32,338 bases of DNA from an uncultured bacterium (lineage in GTDB: Bacteria > Bacillota > Clostridia > Oscillospirales > Acutalibacteraceae), in the NCBI GenBank assembly GCA_949293385.1, contig CASFDQ010000061.1, positions 1 through 32,338 on the forward strand, written 5' to 3'. Positions 3,579 through 18,829 of this stretch are shown in pieces. Positions within the stretch are counted from its first letter, which is position 1. Each line of letters starts with the position of its first letter. The notes beneath the pieces were generated by a model. That model ran no database searches, had not been told where the DNA came from, and saw only the letters and a program-made list of their open reading frames with translations. The translations under genes and the position numbers were made by a program.

Positions 3579-5183
3579 ATGGCAGTTTTTAAAAGAAGAT
3601 GGTTTATGTGGGACCTTGCCCGTCAGCGCAGGTTTGATCGGGAGGAGTTTTTACTCGTAACGGATAAGTTGGCCGATCTCGGATATAACGGACTCGGTCT
3701 TTATTTGGAGGGAGCCTTTGAGCTTAAGTGCCTCGGCGGCGGAATTCTTCGCCCCGGCGTTATGACCCATGAGGACGCCGCTTGGGCCAAGAAGATATGC
3801 GAAGAGAAGGGAATATTCCTCTTCCCGATGACCAACGTCGTCGGCCACATGGAGCATTTTCTCAGGCAGGAACGCTTTAAGCACCTCTGCGCAAATATTA
3901 AGCAGGGAAGCCTCGATATAAATTTTGAGCTTCCCGAGGCAAAGGATTTTGCCCTTAAAATAGTTTACGAATTTTTAGAAGCCCTCGATACCGATTATAT
4001 TCATATCGGCGGCGACGAGGCTAAGCTCAGCGACCGTACCCGTCCCCTTTATGCAGAGTTTTTATCCGGCCTTTGCGACGAGCTTTTGGCCGACGGAAAA
4101 AGGGTCGCGATATGGAACGACCTTCTTTGGGCACATCAGGAGCTTGTTGAGCCCTTCAGCCGCGATATCGAGATCTTCGATTGGTGGTATAAAGGTCACC
4201 GTCCTATGTCTATCGAGTTTTTCCTTAACGCAGGCTTTAAAAACGTTATCGCCTGTCCCTGCGAAAACTCCTGGGTCGGCTTTATAAGTCATCAGTTCCT
4301 GCGCGACTGGGTTCAGGACCCCGACGATACCCCCGTTGAGTCGGACGAGATAGAGGCCCTTTTATACGACGCGGTAAAGGTAGGAGACCCTGACAATCTC
4401 TGCGGACTTTATACGCACTGGGAGGACACTATGGGCCGCGACCTTTGGGGTCAGTGGTCACCGATAGCCCGTGCAGGCCTTTATATGCAGGGCAAATGGG
4501 AATATAAGACCCGTAACGACGAGGCCCTCGAAAAGGCGATCTTCGGAAGGGTCACCCCCTATACCGAGATAATGCATATAATTCAGGACGAGATACATAC
4601 CCTTTTCAGAAATCCCGCGTTGGTAAGCTACGTCAGAACGGCCCTCTTTACCAAAAAGAACTTTAACGACGCGGCGTTAGAATCCTTTGAAAGCGGAAGG
4701 GATTTCCTCCCCGAGGTCGAAGCGCCTATTGCCAAGATCGACGCCTTGCTTTCTAGCTGGACTCCCGAAAACGCCTTTGAGCGGTGCTGCAAGGCCGACC
4801 TCGTTTCGGTATCGGCTATGATGAAGGCTTCCTTTGCTCTTAAATCCGCCTTTGCAGGCTGCGGAAAGTATTATACCGAGGCCGCAAAGCTTCAGTTTAC
4901 CGACCCCGAAAAGGCAAAAGAGCTTATTTTTGAGTTTGCGGAAGGCTTTTACCGCGCCGCAAAGCTTAACCGCGAATACTATGAAACGCTTAAAGAATTT
5001 ATCGGCCTTACCGCTCATACCGAGACCGATCTTATAAAGCTTGATTTCGCCTATAAGTACACCACCGATTTTGCCGAGGCCTTAAAAGCCCAAGCCCTCT
5101 CCGAGAGCTTTAAGAAGATCGCTCTGCCGACGATAAACTTCGTTTTGGATTTCGTGCTCGACGATATTGTGATCGAAAAATAA
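3579..5183 (+). CDS. GH20-like glycoside hydrolase (beta-hexosaminidase superfamily)
   Basis: This protein of about 534 residues has a TIM-barrel N-terminal half resembling family GH20 beta-N-acetylhexosaminidases. The key evidence is HIGGDEA at residues 142-148, the GH20 Asp-Glu pair (D146, E147) in which Glu is the acid and Asp positions the substrate N-acetyl group. Strand-end motifs such as LYLEGAFEL, FPMTNVVGH and IWNDLL fit the barrel. No signal peptide is visible, so it should act in the cytoplasm on imported oligosaccharides. The usual N-terminal GH20b domain is missing, and the C-terminal ~200 residues are helical and unassigned. The ATG at 3579 is preferred over an in-frame GTG at 3570 because GAGGTGAT lies just ahead of it. 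The substrate is inferred only from family. Confidence 0.8.
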   Translation: MAVFKRRWFMWDLARQRRFDREEFLLVTDKLADLGYNGLGLYLEGAFELKCLGGGILRPGVMTHEDAAWAKKICEEKGIFLFPMTNVVGHMEHFLRQERFKHLCANIKQGSLDINFELPEAKDFALKIVYEFLEALDTDYIHIGGDEAKLSDRTRPLYAEFLSGLCDELLADGKRVAIWNDLLWAHQELVEPFSRDIEIFDWWYKGHRPMSIEFFLNAGFKNVIACPCENSWVGFISHQFLRDWVQDPDDTPVESDEIEALLYDAVKVGDPDNLCGLYTHWEDTMGRDLWGQWSPIARAGLYMQGKWEYKTRNDEALEKAIFGRVTPYTEIMHIIQDEIHTLFRNPALVSYVRTALFTKKNFNDAALESFESGRDFLPEVEAPIAKIDALLSSWTPENAFERCCKADLVSVSAMMKASFALKSAFAGCGKYYTEAAKLQFTDPEKAKELIFEFAEGFYRAAKLNREYYETLKEFIGLTAHTETDLIKLDFAYKYTTDFAEALKAQALSESFKKIALPTINFVLDFVLDDIVIEK

Positions 5184-5196
5184 TAATAATTAAATG

Positions 5197-5225
5197 TTGA
5201 AAAAATCCTCTTTTTATGGTATGTT
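5197..5225 (+). promoter_or_regulatory. Predicted promoter for the GH16-GH95 pair
   Basis: TTGAAA at 5197-5202 and TATGTT at 5220-5225 with a 17-base spacer, followed by GAAAGGGGATT as ribosome-binding site before the ATG at 5256. It implies that the GH16 and GH95 genes can be transcribed apart from the GH20-like gene. Confidence 0.65.
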
Positions 5226-5255
5226 AAAAGCAAATACCGGAAAGGGGATTTTGTT

Positions 5256-6131
5256 ATGTCAAAAATTATGAAAAAAGAAGCTGAAAAATTCGGTTTCGAG
5301 TATGAAAAAATGGGCCGCAAGCTCGTTTGGCACGATGAGTTCGATAAGGACTCTATCGACTTTGATAAGTGGAACTTCCGCCGCACCATGGGCGGAGCCG
5401 ACCGCATTTACGACAATTCGGAAAAGCACGCAAGGATCGAGGACGGTCACCTTTTAATGCAGGTGCACGGTACCGACGACCCCGAGCATCCTTGGTCGCT
5501 CTCCGAGGGCTTTACTACCTCCGAAACCATGCTCTTCACCTACGGCTACTTAGAGATAAAGGCGAGACCTCCCTTCCGTCACGGCGCCTGGCCTTCCTTC
5601 TGGATGCAGTCTGCAACCCCCTTCAGAACCGTTCCCTGGTTTAGTGAGGTCGATATCTACGAGATATTCTCCTCTGAAAATAAGGTCGTCGCCAATATTC
5701 ATAAGTGGGGACAGGGTCAGCATACCTCGCTTGACGGCGTCGAGAACGCTACGGGTCGCGCCTATTTCTTTAAGGACTACGAAAACCTTAATAACGAATA
5801 TCATATATACGGCTTCGAGTGGGACGAGAAATATATGTACTTCTACGTCGACGGCGAGATGTATATTAAGTTCGATATAACCGAAGAGGGCTGTCAGGTG
5901 CCCAACCACGTCCTCCCCGGTGCGCAGTGCTACCACGACCCTCATTTCATCATCTTCAACGACGAGATCTTCACTCCGAACGGCGGTTGGGTAGTACCCG
6001 GCTGGAGCCTTGTGGATGAAGATCCCCTGCCCATCGATTATTCTATTGACTACGTTCGCCTTTATCAGAAGGAGGGCGAGCGCCTTATCCTTAAGGACGA
6101 GATCGCAAAGAAGACCGCCGAGGCAAAATAA
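5256..6131 (+). CDS. GH16-family glycoside hydrolase without signal peptide
   Basis: This 291-residue protein has the GH16 (laminarinase/licheninase/agarase superfamily) jelly-roll pattern. The diagnostic ExDxxE active site is present as EVDIYE at residues 131-136, where E131 would be the nucleophile and E136 the acid/base. The family opening W-x-D-E-F appears as VWHDEF (24-29), and the aromatic stretch FRHGAWPSFWMQS (107-119) precedes the active site. GH16 enzymes cut beta-1,3/1,4 glucans or galactans and are normally secreted, but neither a signal peptide nor a carbohydrate-binding module is visible here. The stop codon overlaps the next ATG by one base (TAATG), so it is translationally coupled to the GH95 gene. 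The exact substrate cannot be told. Confidence 0.88.
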   Translation: MSKIMKKEAEKFGFEYEKMGRKLVWHDEFDKDSIDFDKWNFRRTMGGADRIYDNSEKHARIEDGHLLMQVHGTDDPEHPWSLSEGFTTSETMLFTYGYLEIKARPPFRHGAWPSFWMQSATPFRTVPWFSEVDIYEIFSSENKVVANIHKWGQGQHTSLDGVENATGRAYFFKDYENLNNEYHIYGFEWDEKYMYFYVDGEMYIKFDITEEGCQVPNHVLPGAQCYHDPHFIIFNDEIFTPNGGWVVPGWSLVDEDPLPIDYSIDYVRLYQKEGERLILKDEIAKKTAEAK

Positions 6132-8746
6132 TGAAGGATCTTATTTTAAGATACGCCGCTCCTGCTGAGGACAGTATCCTCGGCTGGGAGCGTCAGTCGC
6201 TGCCGCTGGGTAACGGCTATATGGGGGCAAACGTTTTCGGCCGATATGACCGCGAACGTATTCAGTTTACCTCAAACCGCCTTCAGAATCCCTTAGACCT
6301 TGGCGGAACGACCTCCTTTGCCGATATGTATATTGAACTCGGTCACGAAAAGGTCGAGAACTACGAGCGGGGACTGAACCTTAACCGAGGGGTTGCCTAT
6401 TGCCGATATAATTCGGGAGGAACCCACTACGAAAGAGAGTATTTCACTTCCTACCCCGACGAGCTTCTGGCCGTAAGACTTACCGCCGATAAGCCGACCC
6501 TTAGCTTTAGCCTTTCCCTTTCTATCTCTTATCTCGGAAAAAGGGCCCCCGAGGAGGGCGGAAAAGAGGGTTCGGTCAAAAACGAAAAGGGCGATATTAT
6601 TCTTCGCGGCCGCCTCTGCTCAAGAGACCTTATCTTCGAAGCGCAGGCCGCCCTTTATACCGACGGCGAAAGAATCGACGGTGAGGACTCGGTAGAGGTC
6701 AAAAACGCAACCTTTGCCGAGATATATTACCTTCAGGGCACGAGCTACGAGCTTTGTCCCGAGGTCTTCTTAGAGACCGATTTTTCTAAGAAGGCTCTCG
6801 GAGACGATCCTCACGAGGCCCTAAGGGAGCGGCTTGCTTTTGCTAAAGGGGAGGGCTACGCTTCCCTTTATAACCGTCATTTTGCCGATTACGGCGAGCT
6901 TTTCGGCAGGGTCGACATCGACCTCGGCGGAAAGGCTGAGGGCTATACCGACGAGCTTTTGGCCGAGTACAGAAAAACCGCCGACAACCGTTATATCGAG
7001 GAGCTTTATTTTCAGTTTGGACGATATCTCCTTATCGCCTCCTCAAGAAAGGGCACCTCGCCCTCTTCCCTTCAGGGAGTATGGAGCGCCTACGATAAGA
7101 CCCCTTGGTCGGGCGGCTTTTGGCACAATATAAATATTCAGATGAATTATTGGCCTGCTTTTTCCTGTAATCTTGCCGAGACCTTTCCCGCCTATGCCGA
7201 ATTTTATAAGGCTTATCGCCCCGTTACCGAGAAGCTTGCTTCCGAGTTTCTTAAAACCAACTATCCCGAGGGCTACGTCGAAGGAGAAGGAGAGTGCGGC
7301 TGGCTTATTCCTACCGCCTGCAACTCCTATGAGATCGCCGCAGAGGGTAGCGAAATGGAACATTCGGGGCCCGGTACGGTCGGAATGACCTCTAAGCTTT
7401 TCTGGGAATATTACGACTTTACCCGCGACGAAAGTGTGCTTAAGGAGCTGACTTATCCCGCCCTTCGCGGAGCGGCTCAGTTTTTAACCAAATGCGTTAA
7501 GGAATATGACGACGGGGTATGCCGTGCGGCAATTTCCGCCTCCCCCGAGCAGATAGTGGGCGCCGCCTGGGTAACTGACCGTAAGCATAATCAGTTTTAT
7601 TATCATACCGTAGGCTGTGCCTTCGATCAGCAGATGATCTACGAAAACGGCCTCGACTTTCTAAAGGCCTCCGAGCTTCTCGGTAAGGAGGATGACGAGC
7701 TTTACCGTCTTCAGAAGTCGCAGATAGACCGCTATGCCCCCGTCAGAGTAGGCTACAGCGGTCAGATAAAGGAATACGAGGAGGAGCATTTCTACGGAGA
7801 GATAGGCGAGCTTCACCACCGCCACATTTCTCAGCTTATGTCATTGGTTCCCGGCTCTGTAATCGGAAGCGCGACCCCTGCCTGGCTTGACGCCGCCAAG
7901 AAGACCCTGGAGCTTCGCGGAGATATGTCTACCGGCTGGGCTTTGGCTCACCGCCTTTGTGCCTGGGCAAGAACGGGGGAGGGCGACCGCGCTCACATCC
8001 TGTTTAAAAACCTGCTTCAGAACCGAACCTACGATAATCTCTGGGACTGGCATCCCCCCTTTCAGATCGACGGAAACTTCGGAGGAACGACGGGGGTTGC
8101 CGAAATGCTGCTTCAAAGTCACGAGGGCTATATAAATATCCTTCCGACCCTTCCGACCGTTTGGCATACCGGTGCCTTTAGCGGCCTTAAGGCGAGAGGA
8201 AACTTTACGGTCGACTGCAACTGGGAAAAGGGTCGCGCTACCGAAATAAAAATAACCGCCCCTAAAGGCGGCGAGGTTAAAATAAGGTATAAAGGAATAG
8301 GAAAGGCGAAAGTTTTCTGCGACGGTAAAGAGATATCCCCCGTATCGCAGGACGATCTGTTTATAACCTTTAATACCGAGGCCGAAAAGACCTATACCCT
8401 TTCGGGCTTTGAGGAGCTCTTTACCGCAAAGGAGCCGGCCGACCTTTCCTACCGTAAAAAGGACGGCGAGGTAGGCCTTTGCTGGCAGGGCGAGGGAGAG
8501 CTTTACCGCGTCTACTGCGCAAGGGACGACGAGAGCGATTATACCCTTCTTGCCGAAACTGCCGATACAAGCTTTACCTATAGCCTGCCCGACGAAAAGG
8601 CGGTCTATAGTTTTAAGGTTACCGCTCTTTATAAGGATATGCCTCTTTCGGAATCGACGGGCGCTCTTATAACCCTTCATCCGGCGGACGAGCTAGAACT
8701 CGACCGCTATACCCGACATATAAACAAGATATCACAGTACGGTTAA
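6131..8746 (+). CDS. GH95-family alpha-L-fucosidase (or related alpha-L-galactosidase)
   Basis: This 871-residue protein matches family GH95, inverting enzymes that release terminal alpha-1,2-fucose (some act on alpha-L-galactose). An N-terminal beta domain opens with SLPLGNGYMGANVFG (23-37). The (alpha/alpha)6 catalytic barrel holds HNINIQMNYWP (332-342) with the asparagines expected in the active site, SPEQ (471-474) with the candidate acid E473, and QIDGNFGGTTG (645-655) with D647. ILPTLP near 670 closes the barrel, and a fibronectin-like tail covers the last ~90 residues. No signal peptide is present, so it would trim fucosylated oligosaccharides after uptake. It is the last gene of the pair begun by the GH16 gene and is followed by a terminator. 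Confidence 0.92.
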   Translation: MKDLILRYAAPAEDSILGWERQSLPLGNGYMGANVFGRYDRERIQFTSNRLQNPLDLGGTTSFADMYIELGHEKVENYERGLNLNRGVAYCRYNSGGTHYEREYFTSYPDELLAVRLTADKPTLSFSLSLSISYLGKRAPEEGGKEGSVKNEKGDIILRGRLCSRDLIFEAQAALYTDGERIDGEDSVEVKNATFAEIYYLQGTSYELCPEVFLETDFSKKALGDDPHEALRERLAFAKGEGYASLYNRHFADYGELFGRVDIDLGGKAEGYTDELLAEYRKTADNRYIEELYFQFGRYLLIASSRKGTSPSSLQGVWSAYDKTPWSGGFWHNINIQMNYWPAFSCNLAETFPAYAEFYKAYRPVTEKLASEFLKTNYPEGYVEGEGECGWLIPTACNSYEIAAEGSEMEHSGPGTVGMTSKLFWEYYDFTRDESVLKELTYPALRGAAQFLTKCVKEYDDGVCRAAISASPEQIVGAAWVTDRKHNQFYYHTVGCAFDQQMIYENGLDFLKASELLGKEDDELYRLQKSQIDRYAPVRVGYSGQIKEYEEEHFYGEIGELHHRHISQLMSLVPGSVIGSATPAWLDAAKKTLELRGDMSTGWALAHRLCAWARTGEGDRAHILFKNLLQNRTYDNLWDWHPPFQIDGNFGGTTGVAEMLLQSHEGYINILPTLPTVWHTGAFSGLKARGNFTVDCNWEKGRATEIKITAPKGGEVKIRYKGIGKAKVFCDGKEISPVSQDDLFITFNTEAEKTYTLSGFEELFTAKEPADLSYRKKDGEVGLCWQGEGELYRVYCARDDESDYTLLAETADTSFTYSLPDEKAVYSFKVTALYKDMPLSESTGALITLHPADELELDRYTRHINKISQYG

Positions 8747-14094: not shown

Positions 14095-14871
14095 TTGTTT
14101 GACGGAAAGCTGGTTATTCTAAAACCCGAAGACATAATCCCTAAAAAGGATCAGCCCCGAAAGACTTTTGACGAATACGAGCTTCAGAAGCTCTCTGTAA
14201 GCATAAAGGAAAACGGAATTCTTCAGCCCCTTATCGTCCGAAAGGCCGACAAAGGAAAATACCTCCTTATCGCGGGAGAACGGAGGCTCAGAGCGGCAAA
14301 AATGGCGGGGATCAAAAGAATTCCCTGCATAATCCGCGCCGCCGACGATATTACCGCCGACCTTTATACGATAATCGAAAATCTTCAGCGAAGCGACCTT
14401 AGCGTTTTCGAGGAGGCCGAGGGAATAAGCAGGCTCATATTCTGTCACGGGCTGAGTCAGACCGAGGTATCCGAAAGACTCGGTATCGCGCCCTCGACCC
14501 TTTCTAATAAGCTTCGGCTTTTAAAGCTCGGTGAAAAGCTTAAGGAACGTATAATTGCCGCAGGCCTTACCGAGCGCCACGCACGCGCCCTCCTTCGAAT
14601 ACCCGAGGAGGAAAGAGAAGCCGCCCTCGATTTCATCTTAGCCCGTCAGTTGAGCGTAGCCGATACCGACAGGTATATCGAAAAACTGCTTTCGCCTCCC
14701 GAGAAAAAGCGCGAGCCGGTCAGAAAGGCGGCTATCGGCGACCTTCGACTCTTCGCTAACAGCCTGACGAAAATGGTCGATACGATGAGGCTCGGCGGCG
14801 TTACGGCCAAAACCGAAAGACACGAGACCGATACTCATATAGAATATACCGTGATTATCAGTAAACAGTGA
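14095..14871 (+). CDS. ParB-family DNA-binding protein, Noc-like by position
   Basis: This second ParB-family protein in the window has 258 residues from TTG 14095 (AAGGCGGTGA just upstream). CTP-binding ParB motifs are present: GERRLRA (61-67) and ENLQRSD (95-101), followed by a helix-turn-helix around 118-142 (LSQTEVSERLGIAPSTLSNKL). In Bacillus the gene after rsmG is noc, the nucleoid-occlusion factor that spreads from its own sites and holds DNA at the membrane through an N-terminal amphipathic helix. Here the protein opens directly with the ParB domain (MFDGKLVILKPEDI), so that helix appears absent. It lies 12 kb from parA-parB. It may be a Noc relative that works differently or a second ParB; the ParB-fold assignment itself is firm. 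Confidence 0.85.
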   Translation: MFDGKLVILKPEDIIPKKDQPRKTFDEYELQKLSVSIKENGILQPLIVRKADKGKYLLIAGERRLRAAKMAGIKRIPCIIRAADDITADLYTIIENLQRSDLSVFEEAEGISRLIFCHGLSQTEVSERLGIAPSTLSNKLRLLKLGEKLKERIIAAGLTERHARALLRIPEEEREAALDFILARQLSVADTDRYIEKLLSPPEKKREPVRKAAIGDLRLFANSLTKMVDTMRLGGVTAKTERHETDTHIEYTVIISKQ

Positions 14872-14916: not shown

Positions 14917-15057
14917 GTTTTCCGTAAGGAAAACATATCGCTTGACCGAAGGTCAAATATAACACGGCGAAGCCGTATATCACTCGTGCGAAGCACGAAT
15001 ATCACTGCGGCGAAAGCCGCAATAATATGCCCCCCTTTTTATATGACTTTGTCATAT
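14917..15057. repeat. Tandem array of six mini-hairpins with A-rich tri/tetraloops
   Basis: Six short inverted repeats follow one another: GTTTTCC-GTAA-GGAAAAC (14917-14934), TTGACC-GAA-GGTCAA (14942-14956), ACGGC-GAA-GCCGT (14964-14976), TCGTGC-GAA-GCACGA (14984-14998), TGCGGC-GAAA-GCCGCA (15006-15021), and ATATGAC-TTT-GTCATAT (15041-15057). The linkers between units 2-5 are ATATAAC or ATATCAC. Stem sequences differ completely while base pairing, loop type and linker are kept. That points to selection for structure rather than simple duplication. It fills most of the ~300-base gap between the ParB-like gene and the next gene. Confidence 0.85.
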
Positions 15058-15064
15058 TTAACCG

Positions 15065-15097
15065 CAAAAGAGCAACGGAAAACCCGTTGCTCTTTTG
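15065..15097 (+). terminator. Strong hairpin terminator after the hairpin array
   Basis: A 14-bp stem (15065-15078 with 15084-15097) containing GAGCAACGG/CCGTTGCTC closes a 5-base loop. T-rich and A-rich flanks on the two strands let it work for the ParB-like gene on the plus strand. The inserted element begins 12 bases later. Confidence 0.7.
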
Positions 15098-15108
15098 TGA
15101 TTTATGTG

Positions 15109-15135
15109 ATATGCTTGTGCTACAATAGGGACAAA
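15109..15135 (+). repeat. Left terminal inverted repeat
   Basis: Outer arm ATATGCTTGTG and inner arm TAGGGACAAA are the exact reverse complements of the inner/outer arms at 17431-17457. Only the middle six bases vary. Confidence 0.75.
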
Positions 15136-15165
15136 AAATCTGCCGAAGAAAAATCCTCGGCAGAT
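15132..15165 (-). terminator. Minus-strand terminator of the unknown coiled-coil-like gene
   Basis: ATCTGCCGA (15138-15146) pairs with TCGGCAGAT (15157-15165) around a 10-base loop. Read on the minus strand, the stem is followed by TTTTTGTCCC. It begins six bases after the stop codon and overlaps the inner edge of the left inverted repeat. Confidence 0.85.
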
Positions 15166-15170
15166 ATTTG

Positions 15171-15806
15171 TTAACCTAAATGTCTAATGGTGTCTAACAC
15201 ATCTGAAATCGCAGCGATTTTTCCTTCATCATCAGCGGCTCTTTCTAATGCTTTCATAGCCATCTCTTTTAAAGAAGTTTGCTTTGATGTGAGGTCGTCA
15301 TACATCTTTTCGTAGAGAGCAATTAGCTTTTGATTTGTTGCTTCTCTTGCTTTGATAATTTCTCCGACTGCTTTTGCCTGTTCTTGTGTTCCCACATCAC
15401 CCGGTCCGCCTGATTTCATTTTTCCAAGTTCGGAAATTGCATCAGTAAGAAATGCCTGACCGAGTGAGATTTCTTCTAATTTGCCTAATAGGTAATCCAT
15501 AGTAAGCTTTTCAGAACTTCGTTTTCCTGTTGTTGAATCAAGTAAATTAGCCATAGCTTCAGCAATCTCTTTGGAAGTTCCACTATTGTTAGGTGTACTG
15601 TTATTATTAGAATCAACTTTTTTGTTTTCTGACATTATTTTGTCCTCCAATTCGATATTTGGCGGACACGCAAGGCATATAGTGTTTTCATCTATGAAGC
15701 GTGCCCTGCCATTTTTAACAAGACCTTTTGCCCTTTTTGGGTAGGTCGCCTCATATTCATTTCCTTGTTCATCTACAACAACAATGTTTTTTTCTATGGG
15801 TATCAT
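15171..15806 (-). CDS. Unknown protein with KRAKGLVKNGRARF N-terminal domain and helical tail
   Basis: No function can be assigned. From ATG 15806 the protein has 211 residues. A ~50-residue N-terminal domain reads VVVDEQGNEYEATYPKRAKG then LVKNGRARFIDENTICLACPP, a pattern I associate with uncharacterised Clostridia proteins. An Asn/Ser/Thr-rich linker (about 60-80) follows, then a helical, coiled-coil-like C-terminal part. GTG at 15863 would lengthen it by 19 residues, but that codon sits at the predicted transcription start. ATG 15806 overlaps the stop of a short leader frame (ATGA), which would explain its poorly spaced Shine-Dalgarno. Base composition is AT-rich, unlike its chromosomal neighbours. 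It is divergent from the ATPase within the insert. Confidence 0.75.
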   Translation of the reverse strand: MIPIEKNIVVVDEQGNEYEATYPKRAKGLVKNGRARFIDENTICLACPPNIELEDKIMSENKKVDSNNNSTPNNSGTSKEIAEAMANLLDSTTGKRSSEKLTMDYLLGKLEEISLGQAFLTDAISELGKMKSGGPGDVGTQEQAKAVGEIIKAREATNQKLIALYEKMYDDLTSKQTSLKEMAMKALERAADDEGKIAAISDVLDTIRHLG

Positions 15807-15880
15807 CCCCTTATTGTAAATAAAGTGATACTGTTTTTTGTTATGGGTGCCATCCCCGTTCACAAATAAAGTATATCATA
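15793..15880. repeat. Imperfect ~40-bp tandem duplication of the 5' leader
   Basis: Two copies, about 15793-15832 and 15841-15880, share the blocks TATGGGT, CATCCCC and AAATAAAGT in the same order and spacing on the plus strand. Confidence 0.65.
15803..15853 (-). CDS. Possible 16-residue leader peptide duplicated from the downstream gene start
   Basis: The frame starts at ATG 15853, encodes MAPITKNSITLFTIRG, and its TGA overlaps the ATG of the main gene. MAPITKN resembles the main protein's own start MIPIEKN, and the DNA around both starts is a ~40-base direct repeat (about 15793-15832 and 15841-15880). So the leader is a decayed copy of the gene's 5' end, possibly now serving translational coupling. 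Whether it is translated is unproven. Confidence 0.4.
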   Translation of the reverse strand: MAPITKNSITLFTIRG

Positions 15881-15898
15881 CTTTATTTACAATTTCAA
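15864..15898 (-). promoter_or_regulatory. Promoter with an overlapping 25-bp palindromic operator
   Basis: On the minus strand TTGAAA (15898-15893) and TATACT (15875-15870) are 17 bases apart. A perfect 11-bp inverted repeat, AAATAAAGTAT / ATACTTTATTT with a 3-base centre (15864-15888), covers the -10 box and most of the spacer. A further AAATAAAGT half site lies in the leader at about 15818. This is the layout expected for a repressor site; the regulator is not identified. Confidence 0.7.
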
Positions 15899-16121
15899 TA
15901 GCTATTTCTGAGTCAAGGCAGGAATAACTGTCATACTATCGGCGGATTTTCCGCTTAAAAACATAATTTTTAACAGTATTTTCGTTAGTATGATTTTAAA
16001 TGTGTCGGTATGATTTTTGTCATACCGATTATTTTTGCACACAAAATTTTTATAAGCTAAACAAATAATTGCCGTTTAACGAGGGTAAAATATAATAAAA
16101 TGCAATTTACACCTCCTTAAC
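15899..16121. other. AT-rich spacer between the divergent genes of the insert
   Basis: No gene is supported here. It contains several small inverted repeats: GCGGA..TCCGC near 15943-15954, TCATACTA (15931-15938) with TAGTATGA (15986-15993), and TCGGTATGA (16005-16013) with TCATACCGA (16020-16028), the last followed by TTATTTTTG. A minus-strand TAAGGAGGT (about 16113-16121) is a perfect Shine-Dalgarno word but leads only into a nine-codon frame. Confidence 0.5.
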
Positions 16122-16150
16122 TTGACATTAACTAAAGAATATGCTATAAT
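16122..16150 (+). promoter_or_regulatory. Perfect consensus promoter for the AAA+ ATPase
   Basis: TTGACA at 16122-16127, a 17-base spacer, and TATAAT at 16145-16150: both hexamers match the sigma-A consensus exactly. AGAGAGGAG follows as ribosome-binding site. No overlapping palindrome was seen. Confidence 0.9.
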
Positions 16151-16180
16151 GTCGATGCCATAAAGAGAGGAGTGTTGACG

Positions 16181-17410
16181 ATGAATCAAAAGGTTTACAC
16201 AAGGCAATATTACATTGACAAAATCCGAGGATTTTACCACAGCGACCTAATTAAGGTTGTTACGGGTATCCGACGCTCAGGCAAATCGTTCTTTCTGCTT
16301 TCTGTTATGGAGGATCTAAAAAAATCGGGTGTAAAAGAAAAAGATATTATTTATCTTAATCTTGACAGGCGCGGTTACAGAAAGATTAAAACCCCCGATG
16401 CTTTAGAAGAAGCCATTGAAAAGCAAATCACAGATGATGATTTTAAATATCTGTTTATTGATGAAGTTCAAAATGTAGTTGGCTTTGAAGAAGTTGTTAA
16501 CGGTTTCAGAGAGGACGGAAACCTTTCTATCTTCATCACAGGCTCTAACTCTTATCTGTTAAGCGGTGAGCTTTCCACTAAACTCACAGGCCGATATATC
16601 GAAGTTGAAATGTTTACCCTTAACTTCCGTGAGTATTTGGAAATGAAAGCGTTCCTAGGTAAGGAAGTCAATGCTGACAAAACGACAGAATTTAACGAAT
16701 ATCTCCGTTTTGGAGGTTTCCCAAAAACACTTGAATTTGATGAAGCCGCAGACAAAGACACTTATATTGCCGATGTTATAAAGCAGATACTTGAAAAGGA
16801 TGTTATTAAGCATAAAAAAATCCGCAACCGTGCCGTGTTTGATAAAGTTATGACTTATGTCATCAATAACTTCGGCGCTACTGTTAGTCTTGGAAGTATT
16901 GCTGAATACTTTGATAAACAAGAGAATATCAAAATTCGCACCGAAACTCTTAACAATTATCTTAAAATACTTGAAAACGCTAAAATTATTTATGGGTGCC
17001 CACGCTTTGATATTAAGTCTAAAAAATCGCTTCGGGGCGAACAAAAATATTATCTTGCTGACCTTGGTATCTACTTTTCCCGCAACGTAGATACAAGAAT
17101 AAATTATGGTCCGGTGCTTGAAAACATCGTTTACACTTATCTTTATGCAAAGAATTATAAAATCAGCGTAGGAAGAATTGGTAAATTTGAATGTGATTTC
17201 ATCACACGCATTAATGATGAATACCGATACGTTCAGGTTGCTATGACAATTATGAGTGAAAACACAGAGGAGCGCGAATATAAACCGTTTACAATGATTC
17301 GTGACAACTATCCAAAATATCTGTTTACCATTGATACGCTCTTGCAAAAGCGTGATGGCGTAATACACAAAAATATCATTAATTTTATTTCTGAAAATGA
17401 AAATCTCTAA
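16181..17410 (+). CDS. AAA+ family ATPase with DUF4143-type C-terminal domain
   Basis: This 409-residue protein belongs to the large, poorly understood AAA_14/DUF4143 group. Walker A is GIRRSGKS (29-36), Walker B is LFIDEVQ (91-97), and the TGSNSYLLSGELSTKLTGR stretch (120-138) is the group's sensor/arginine region. The C-terminal half (about 200-400) includes a winged-helix-like section and a domain with YLADLGIYFS, a nuclease-like region that is often degenerate. Members are frequently found in mobile or variable regions; their role is unknown. The ATG at 16181 is favoured over GTG 16172 because GAGAGGAG then has normal spacing. AT-rich composition sets it apart from neighbours outside the inverted repeats. 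Confidence 0.88.
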   Translation: MNQKVYTRQYYIDKIRGFYHSDLIKVVTGIRRSGKSFFLLSVMEDLKKSGVKEKDIIYLNLDRRGYRKIKTPDALEEAIEKQITDDDFKYLFIDEVQNVVGFEEVVNGFREDGNLSIFITGSNSYLLSGELSTKLTGRYIEVEMFTLNFREYLEMKAFLGKEVNADKTTEFNEYLRFGGFPKTLEFDEAADKDTYIADVIKQILEKDVIKHKKIRNRAVFDKVMTYVINNFGATVSLGSIAEYFDKQENIKIRTETLNNYLKILENAKIIYGCPRFDIKSKKSLRGEQKYYLADLGIYFSRNVDTRINYGPVLENIVYTYLYAKNYKISVGRIGKFECDFITRINDEYRYVQVAMTIMSENTEEREYKPFTMIRDNYPKYLFTIDTLLQKRDGVIHKNIINFISENENL

Positions 17411-17430
17411 TTGTAATAATGCAATACTGA

Positions 17431-17457
17431 TTTGTCCCTAATTTGACACAAGCATAT
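17431..17457 (-). repeat. Right terminal inverted repeat
   Basis: TTTGTCCCTA at the inner side and CACAAGCATAT at the outer side are exact reverse complements of the left end at 15109-15135. The middle six bases differ at four positions. Confidence 0.75.
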
Positions 17458-17464
17458 ATTTAAT

Positions 17465-18829
17465 TCAAGCGGATATCTTCTTTTCCTTCCAGGCGCCGGT
17501 AAGGTAGAAAGCTATTCCTATAAACATAGGGGTAAAGCCCGCCAGAGCGTCTCCCAGCCAGAAGCCGAGATAGCCCATATTAAAGGTTATTCCGAAGAGG
17601 ACCGAAAGTCCTATTCGAAGAATTATTCCGTCGAAAATGGCGGTGGCGAAATTCACCTTATAGTTTCCGCTTCCGTTAACGAGGGCGTTTGCGGGGCTTC
17701 TGCAGGCCGAACCGAAGAATATAAGTACCGCAATGGGAAGATATTCTGCGCCGATAATCAGTACGGCGGGGTCGGTGGTAAAGATTCCGAAGATCGTTTC
17801 GGGGAAGGCGTAAAAGACGACGCTTAAAAGGGCGGCTATGCCCATAGTTATGGCCGTAATGGTAAGGCAAATTTTGGGAACGCGTTCGTATCTTTTTGCT
17901 CCGATATTCTGACCCACCATAGAGGAGCCTGCGGTGTTAAGGGAGTTGGAGATAAGGTTCGAAACGCTGTTTATCTTGTTGGCGATTCCCGCAAAGGCCG
18001 ATACCGCGACCCCGTAGGAGTTTATCCAGGAGTTTACGAAAAGCTTGGAAAAATGAATAGAGGCGCTCTTTATGGCCATCGGAATTCCGAGCTTTGTAAG
18101 ATCTGAGAGCATAGTCTTGTCGGGTCGTTTCAAATCGGAAAGATTAAGGAAAAAGCCTAAAGAGGAGCGTTTACAATATAGGAATATAAGGCAGGAAACG
18201 AAGCTTACGCACTGACTTATGACCGTCGCCAAGGCCGCGCCCGCCGCACCCAGCGGTATAACTATAACGAAGATCAGATCCAGGAATATATTAAGAATGG
18301 CGGCAATGCTTATAAAAATAAAGGGGTGCCTGCTGTCGCCGAGGCCGCGAAGCACGGCCGAAATAGCGTTGTAGCCGAAGATAAATACCATTCCGCAAAT
18401 ACTTACCACGGCGTAACCGAAGGCCTCCGCTTCGGCCTCGGCCGGAGTATTCATAAGGGCTAAAAGTCGGTCGATAAAAATAAGGCAGAAAAGGCCGAAA
18501 GCGATAGCTATGCCGAAGAGGAGCATAAACATATTAAGAATAAAGCGTCCAACAAGGTCTCTTTTCTTTGCGCCTATGTATTTCGAAATAATGACCGAGC
18601 CTGCGTTTGAAAAGCCCATTGCGATAAAGGTTAAAAAGTTCGCGATATCTCCGCCTACCGAAACGGCCGAGATCCCCGTTTTGCCGAGAGCGTGTCCCAC
18701 GATTATCATATCGACCATACTGTAAAGGATCTGAAGCAGGGAGGACAGAAACAGCGGCGTCGCAAAGATTATAAGCTGCTTCGGAATACTTCCCGAGGTA
18801 AAATCGGTAATAAGGGTCTTGTTTTTCAT
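17465..18829 (-). CDS. MATE-family multidrug/toxin exporter
   Basis: This 454-residue membrane protein fits the MATE family (DinF/NorM-like), cation-coupled exporters of small organic compounds. The start GSIPKQLIIFATPLFLSSLLQ and following SMVDMIIVGHALG form the typical first helices. About twelve hydrophobic segments are arranged as two related halves; the second begins near KLGIPMAIKSASIHFSKLFVN. The loop IISKYIGAKKRD and its counterpart MVGQNIGAKRYERV are the equivalent repeated elements of the two halves. GGCGGAAA precedes the ATG. It is divergent from the ZIP transporter gene and borders the right end of the AT-rich insert. The substrate cannot be predicted. Confidence 0.93.
   Translation of the reverse strand: MKNKTLITDFTSGSIPKQLIIFATPLFLSSLLQILYSMVDMIIVGHALGKTGISAVSVGGDIANFLTFIAMGFSNAGSVIISKYIGAKKRDLVGRFILNMFMLLFGIAIAFGLFCLIFIDRLLALMNTPAEAEAEAFGYAVVSICGMVFIFGYNAISAVLRGLGDSRHPFIFISIAAILNIFLDLIFVIVIPLGAAGAALATVISQCVSFVSCLIFLYCKRSSLGFFLNLSDLKRPDKTMLSDLTKLGIPMAIKSASIHFSKLFVNSWINSYGVAVSAFAGIANKINSVSNLISNSLNTAGSSMVGQNIGAKRYERVPKICLTITAITMGIAALLSVVFYAFPETIFGIFTTDPAVLIIGAEYLPIAVLIFFGSACRSPANALVNGSGNYKVNFATAIFDGIILRIGLSVLFGITFNMGYLGFWLGDALAGFTPMFIGIAFYLTGAWKEKKISA

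Follow-up and report, generated by a model that had tools for sequence, protein, structure and literature searches.

Integrative and mobilizable elements (IMEs) that lack a relaxase but carry an origin of transfer (oriT) are known, but these encode an integration enzyme (PMC5704250). Relaxase-less mobilizable genomic islands (MGIs), such as MTnSag1/tISCpe8 and those mobilized by SXT, are integrated in the chromosome, carry an oriT and are mobilized in trans (PMC5704250). Recombination of Tn4451 takes place between sequences that are identical over 2 bp, and its site specificity is low (PMC5704250). Here we describe a 2.35-kb insert in a 32,338-nt contig from an uncultured clostridial bacterium of the Acutalibacteraceae (CASFDQ010000061.1; the whole contig is termed the window). 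It belongs with other very small mobile gene cassettes from ruminant-gut Clostridia, a family that appears not to have been recognized previously. We consider it likely that the insert is a non-autonomous, mobilizable, oriT-bearing cassette that depends for its movement on an enzyme supplied in trans, probably a large serine recombinase. The cassettes share with the relaxase-less MGIs an integrated state and the lack of a relaxase, they would also share a putative oriT and mobilization in trans, and MTnSag1 is as small as they are. However, the MGIs encode their own transposase or integrase, whereas no such enzyme is encoded by the cassettes, which reside within a promoter and exchange their cargo freely.

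The insert is located between two convergent genes, a ParB/Noc-like gene (+ strand, ending at 14871) and a MatE transporter gene (- strand, ending at 17465), and has a G+C content of 34-37% compared with about 50% in its neighbours. Its left end (LE; TATGCTTGTGCTACAATAGGGACAAA, 15109-15135, + strand) and its right end (RE; 17431-17457, - strand, reading TATGCTTGTGTCAAATTAGGGACAAA on this strand) are inverted repeats that match at 23 of 27 positions. The sole long open reading frames (ORFs) in between encode an unknown 230-aa protein (- strand) and an AAA_14+DUF4143 protein (+ strand). An earlier note on this DNA had pointed out the matching ends, the AT-rich interior, the convergent neighbours and the two-ORF content, and all of these were confirmed. 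Two TA dinucleotides, located at 15110-15111 and 17455-17456, are the better limits of the mobile unit.

When the 2.1-Mb genome that carries the insert was searched for the end pattern with up to three mismatches, these two ends were the only matches, and the reversed control gave none. Among 60 relatives the ends are present in eight genomes, including this one, and among 398 genomes of the bacterial family they are present in 30, at about 75 places compared with three matches for the reversed control. The excess over these controls indicates that the ends are not chance matches. They also occur in other families of the order, and the exact LE pattern was found in 39 stretches of a public genome collection, nearly all of them metagenome bins of ruminant-gut Clostridia. 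Viral contigs searched with the LE and RE patterns yielded no match. Over all loci we collected 131 distinct ends (69 LE and 62 RE), which fall into two types with the consensus TATGCTTGTGCTACAATAGGGACAAA for LE and TATGCTTGTGTYAAATTAGGGACAAA for RE in a fixed orientation. Each end consists of two conserved arm motifs separated by a variable linker.

The 29 complete cassettes range from 304 to 3396 nt in size. They contain 42 ORFs of 130 aa or more, which group into 31 clusters that include helix-turn-helix regulators, sigma-70-like proteins, hydrolases, lipoproteins, DUF559 proteins and a tryptophanyl-tRNA synthetase, the last being the cargo of one cassette type (L068 and L229; our own numbers denote loci, L, and genomes, G). 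Some cargo is found again in other genomes and between other flanks; L089 and L033 (G217) share 98.98% identity over 1377 nt, and more diverged copies share 95.7% over 785 nt and 84.8% over 1276 nt. The search of related genomes with the 27-bp ends, proposed in the earlier note, thus revealed other copies with different cargo. No recombinase, transposase or relaxase was among the motif scan hits at the cassette loci, or among the best 25 of the 49 Pfam families found when 36 cargo proteins were scanned. Comparison of the cassettes shows a family with common ends, a common internal block (described below), freely varying cargo, a TA on both sides and a fixed orientation. With neither an integrase nor a relaxase of their own, the cassettes seem to rely completely on other elements for their movement.

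DUF559 genes and a hairpin, GGCTCCCTCTGACGAGGGAGC, recur directly inside RE at many loci and possibly represent an older, separate mobile unit. DUF559 was considered as the mobilizing protein given its frequent position beside RE, yet it is absent from many cassettes and is therefore counted as cargo. In other families of the order, RE-like sequences (TATGATTTTGTCAAGTTAGGGACAAA, L219-L227) precede several genes. They were likewise considered as cassette ends and set aside, as they lack an LE and the block; perhaps they form a promoter or operator family of their own.

At two loci (L089 and L229) tandem cassettes share a single TA at an RE-TA-LE junction. Such arrays, together with the exchange of cargo between small, promoter-dependent units of mostly one or a few genes, are reminiscent of integron gene cassettes, and the cargo is mostly co-oriented from LE to RE (33 of 42 ORFs). 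An unknown tyrosine integrase acting on LE and RE might thus array single-gene units behind a promoter. We regard this explanation as very improbable. Each unit has two ends, which are inverted with a 2-bp TA crossover and by inspection do not resemble attC or attI; IntI is lacking; a motif scan found no tyrosine recombinase near the ends; and most insertions are single and scattered over many promoters.

The flanks of the cassettes reveal what they are inserted into. Of 42 non-redundant flanks outside LE, 36 have a TTG at a spacing of exactly 17 nt to the TA, where about 2% is expected per position and any other spacing occurs in at most three flanks. A TG precedes N-TA in 37 of the 42, and the full hexamer TTGACA is present in none of them. 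After the TA of RE, the flank begins with the remainder of a -10-like box (TAAT in 25 of 54 flanks and NANT in 45 of 54), and a ribosome-binding site and start codon follow in 43 of 54 flanks compared with 6 of 54 in an interior control. A TTG at 17 nt outside RE was found in merely 3 of 54 flanks, which indicates that the orientation of insertion is fixed. When the two flanks of a cassette are joined, they align with uninterrupted promoters elsewhere that carry a single TA. For example, L107 carries the empty site TTGCCC...TGC-TA-TAATGCACTCAAGAGG, and a cassette resides at the same place in L077. Cassettes are therefore inserted at a TA inside the -10 box and are left with a TA on both sides. 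These comparisons show that the target is a sigma-70-type promoter-like sequence, split at the TA of its -10 box. A recurrent intergenic promoter module (TTGCgcCTCCgCCGCTTTTATGCTATAATACACccAAGGCGGTGAT followed by ATG) is a preferred target of the cassettes and is present in L052 (5110-5240), L058 (6230-6360), L077 (4119-4190) and L107 (2979-3203).

The window conforms to this pattern. A host -35-like hexamer, TTGCTC (15087-15092, + strand), is positioned exactly 17 nt before the left TA (15110-15111), and the right TA together with the host TATT forms the -10-like TATATT of the target (17455-17460, + strand). The reading of the left TA as one copy of a duplicated target dinucleotide rests on the single TA at the empty sites of other cassettes and on the TA shared by tandem cassettes. 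The reconstructed target, TTGCTC-N17-TATATT, overlaps the stem of the noc terminator and is located in a convergent gap with no gene downstream, which suggests that sequence rather than gene expression is recognized.

Both edges of the insert appear to rebuild a promoter. On the left, the host -35 of the cassette family stays 17 nt away from the TATGCT of LE; in the window the host TTGCTC lies 17 nt before it, so that the junction retains promoter spacing. On the right, comparison of the cassettes reveals that RE places a TTGT(C/T) -35 element with a spacing of 17 nt to the host -10-like box; in the window this replacement is TTGTCC (17432-17437, + strand), again exactly 17 nt before the box. 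With promoter spacing rebuilt at both edges, an insertion would not necessarily switch off the host gene, and it could drive expression of the cargo. A third promoter is predicted for the excised form. If the RE and LE of the window are joined via one TA, the TTGACA in RE (17443-17448, + strand) and the TACAAT in LE (15121-15126, + strand) form TTGACA-N17-TACAAT.

A predicted promoter at the circle joint, a 2-bp crossover and low or multi-site targeting are features shared with elements of the Tn4451/TnpX type. The circular form of Tn4451 reportedly makes a promoter for its serine recombinase, TnpX (Lyras and Rood 2000, cited in PMC13023037). However, Tn4451 encodes a serine recombinase and a MobV relaxase, whereas the cassettes lack both (no large serine recombinase was found between LE and RE in any of them), and their crossover core is a TA inside a -10 box.

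A DDE transposase might also leave behind ends of about 25 bp in inverted orientation and a duplicated TA. The cassettes might then be mobile insertion cassettes (MICs) on which an insertion sequence (IS) with the same inverted repeats acts in trans, and the promoter would reflect the target preference of the transposase. There are precedents for parts of this explanation. MICs and tIS elements also have IS-like ends around passenger genes and are moved in trans, and tIS-type IMEs exist (PMC5704250). Elements of the TnGBS, ISLre2 and ISKra4 type insert upstream of sigma-A promoters (PMC3942029), and TnGBS and the p-MULT elements (ISLre2 and ISKra4) share with the cassettes an orientation that derives from the asymmetry of their ends. 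IS630/Tc1-like elements duplicate a TA. Nevertheless, we consider a DDE transposon origin rather doubtful. No such transposase was found among the cassette genes scanned or at any of the 131 ends, IS630/Tc1-like enzymes with the same ends included. The known promoter-targeting elements, which encode their own DDE transposase, reside 15-17 bp upstream of the -35 element, whereas the cassettes split the -10 box at its TA. Furthermore, the variable linker between conserved arm motifs is more like a recombinase attachment site. Unlike MICs and tIS elements, the cassettes have two distinct end types, a promoter target and an oriT-like block, and no parent IS was found for them.

Nearly every cassette carries one copy of a conserved block of 104-116 nt, oriented from LE to RE and located either directly inside LE or 3' of the cargo. 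In the window this block is a 116-nt sequence with hairpins (AAGGCAGGAATAAC ... GTATGATTTTTGTCATACC; 15911-16026, + strand), and homology to the cassette of G124 stops exactly at its end. A model of the block matches 27 of the 398 family genomes, largely those that carry the ends. The base pairs of its four hairpins are retained in 86.7% of alignment cells, and eight pairs are changed on both sides, compared with 4.3 in shuffled alignments (a value reached in 2 of 500 shuffles). Diverged copies are found in two other settings. One is MT836959.1 (L185), where the block immediately precedes a ribbon-helix-helix ORF and the gene for a MobP3-type relaxase. The other is G292 (L181), where it lies upstream of a MobP3 relaxase gene (NF041499, 1.9e-69); the L185 relaxase is a close homolog of the product of this gene. 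The position before MobP3 relaxases and the retained pairing lead us to read the block as an oriT, which it probably is. If so, GCAGGAATA may mark the vicinity of the predicted nick. The complement of the block, TATTCCTGCC, resembles IncP-type nic sites, a resemblance we treat as a lead only.

The hairpins, and the frequent position of the block between LE and cargo, could instead mean that it serves the cassettes as a regulatory leader or an insulating RNA. This is unlikely in our view, since two conjugative-element fragments also have the block in their mobilization region, directly before a MobP3 relaxase, with a MobC-like ORF (so labelled by inspection of the ribbon-helix-helix ORF in L185) between block and relaxase in one of them. 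In addition, the block is often located 3' of the cargo, and it matches no Rfam family. The 8.2-kb human-gut fragment MT836959.1 is labelled 'Bacteriophage sp.' but resembles a fragment of a conjugative element; its genes encode TOPRIM-like, MobC-like and MobP3-type relaxase proteins. When plasmids were searched with the form of the block that is found in conjugative elements, nothing matched.

In genome G013, which also carries cassette ends, a further copy of the block directly precedes the gene for a large serine recombinase with a DUF4368 domain. This domain characterizes multi-targeting serine recombinases (PMC10083194). Together with the 2-bp TA core, the two-motif arms with a variable linker and the structured target, this copy makes a serine recombinase the best fit for the mobilizing enzyme. 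The G013 protein was examined as a candidate, and its gene is not flanked by LE and RE. Tandem serine recombinase genes near the cassette of L103 were rejected as well, as they belong to another element that lacks LE and RE. Large serine recombinase genes, whole or as C-terminal fragments, are also found between pieces of rhs genes in three cassette-bearing genomes (L169, 1927-3525; L234; L256).

Several observations weigh against a cassette moved in trans by a serine recombinase and a MobP3-type relaxase. No recombinase or transposase bounded by these ends was found at any of the 131 ends, and the only candidate linked to a block, that of G013, lacks them too. Two close homologs of this candidate, in the cassette carriers G126 and G243, are fragments at rhs loci. 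The terminal inverted repeats and the TA duplication are also compatible with a DDE transposase. The block is absent from the surroundings of other MobP3 genes in G292 and G366, such that it would match one subset of these relaxases, and no MobP3 gene was found in the genome of the window. The material consists mostly of metagenome-assembled bins. Finally, an exact empty site for the window locus was not found. Neither cargo gene is present at this locus in nine of nine congeners with the noc gene, as expected of a mobile insert, but their right neighbour is a different one. The comparison of the noc/MATE junction proposed in the earlier note therefore yielded congeners without the two genes, and no precise junction.

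With these points in mind, we favour the following mechanism for movement of the cassette. Recombination between the two TA dinucleotides would excise the cassette as a circle, whose joint would create a TTGACA/TTAACA-N17-TACAAT promoter. A recombinase acting in trans, most likely a multi-targeting enzyme of the large serine type, would carry out this excision and would insert the cassette into the -10 box of another promoter. The MobP3-type relaxase of a passing conjugative element could use the 116-nt block as an oriT to transfer the circle between cells. The cargo of the window, a small protein and an AAA/DUF4143 ATPase, would be dispensable for movement.

More tentatively, and with somewhat less than even confidence, we propose that the cassettes represent a distinct, doubly parasitic class, in which serine-recombinase circles, insertion into -10 boxes, promoters rebuilt on both sides, from which cargo and host gene would both be expressed, and conjugation from a MobP3-type oriT combine with an integron-like capture of genes. 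Our search of the literature, which was incomplete, found no description of integrase-less, oriT-bearing cassettes in -10 boxes. If such a class exists, gut Clostridia share genes via minimal units of about 50 bp of ends plus an oriT, and these units land in promoters without necessarily breaking them while depending wholly on other elements. Their existence would account for the movement of single genes between species with no visible transposase, among them genes for regulators, lipoproteins, a tryptophanyl-tRNA synthetase, a sigma factor and a candidate defence ATPase. The ends and the block would also be searchable marks for finding further cassettes.

The cargo genes of the window bear on the overall interpretation in the earlier note, which had left a choice between a non-autonomous cargo element and a small two-gene system. 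The left gene (15171-15806, - strand) encodes a KRAKGLVKNGRARF protein of 211 aa as counted from its ATG, has one copy in its own genome, and has homologs that are 76-93% identical in other cassettes. The gene and its LE are 90% identical over 888 nt to a cassette with a DUF559 gene instead of DUF4143 on the right. The partner of the small protein is DUF4143 in the window, DUF559 in G124 and G217, and another ORF in G229. These differing partners indicate that the two window genes are not an obligate pair; they are interchangeable cargo. An IscB-like PLMP/RRXRR identity of the small protein was considered and rejected, because RRXRR, its sole Pfam hit, is below the cut-off (E=0.19) and the fold model (pLDDT 48) is too poor to search with.

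The right gene (16181-17410, + strand) is preceded by a computed promoter, TTGACA-N17-TATAAT (16122-16150, + strand). It encodes an ATPase with AAA_14 and DUF4143 domains (Pfam, 3.4e-33 and 3e-15) that matches the candidate defence family PDC-S01 (PADLOC, 4.5e-139). This family has been described as very common, and most such candidates await validation (PMC12988326). A sequence search of the PDB with the ATPase returned nothing useful. A related DUF4143/AAA_14 ATPase gene (5181-6407, - strand; PDC-S01, 4.9e-156) directly adjoins the MobP3 relaxase gene (6502-7893, - strand) in L181 of G292, and the ATPase family may therefore regularly ride conjugative elements.

The match to PDC-S01 could be taken to mean that the small protein and the ATPase cooperate in a defence or toxin-antitoxin unit, with the ends merely marking an island. 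We judge this highly improbable. The small protein is found with at least three different partners, the ATPase family stands alone beside a relaxase in G292, and homology between cassettes ends exactly at the oriT-like block. Of the two possibilities offered earlier, the cargo element is thus retained, as the same ends bound many cargos and other cassettes have natural empty sites, and the two-gene system is not. That note had not observed the targeting of promoters, the duplicated TA or the oriT-like block.

Other features of the region were also recorded. A terminator-like hairpin is located directly inside LE (15134-15169, + strand), where hairpins are common across the cassette family. A perfect 14-nt inverted repeat (15813-15893) lies upstream of the left gene and resembles an operator. 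Between the noc gene and the element, and thus outside the latter, 14930-15007 (- strand) matches the Gut-1 RNA family (Rfam RF01706) with a score of 55.7 bits, which is above threshold.

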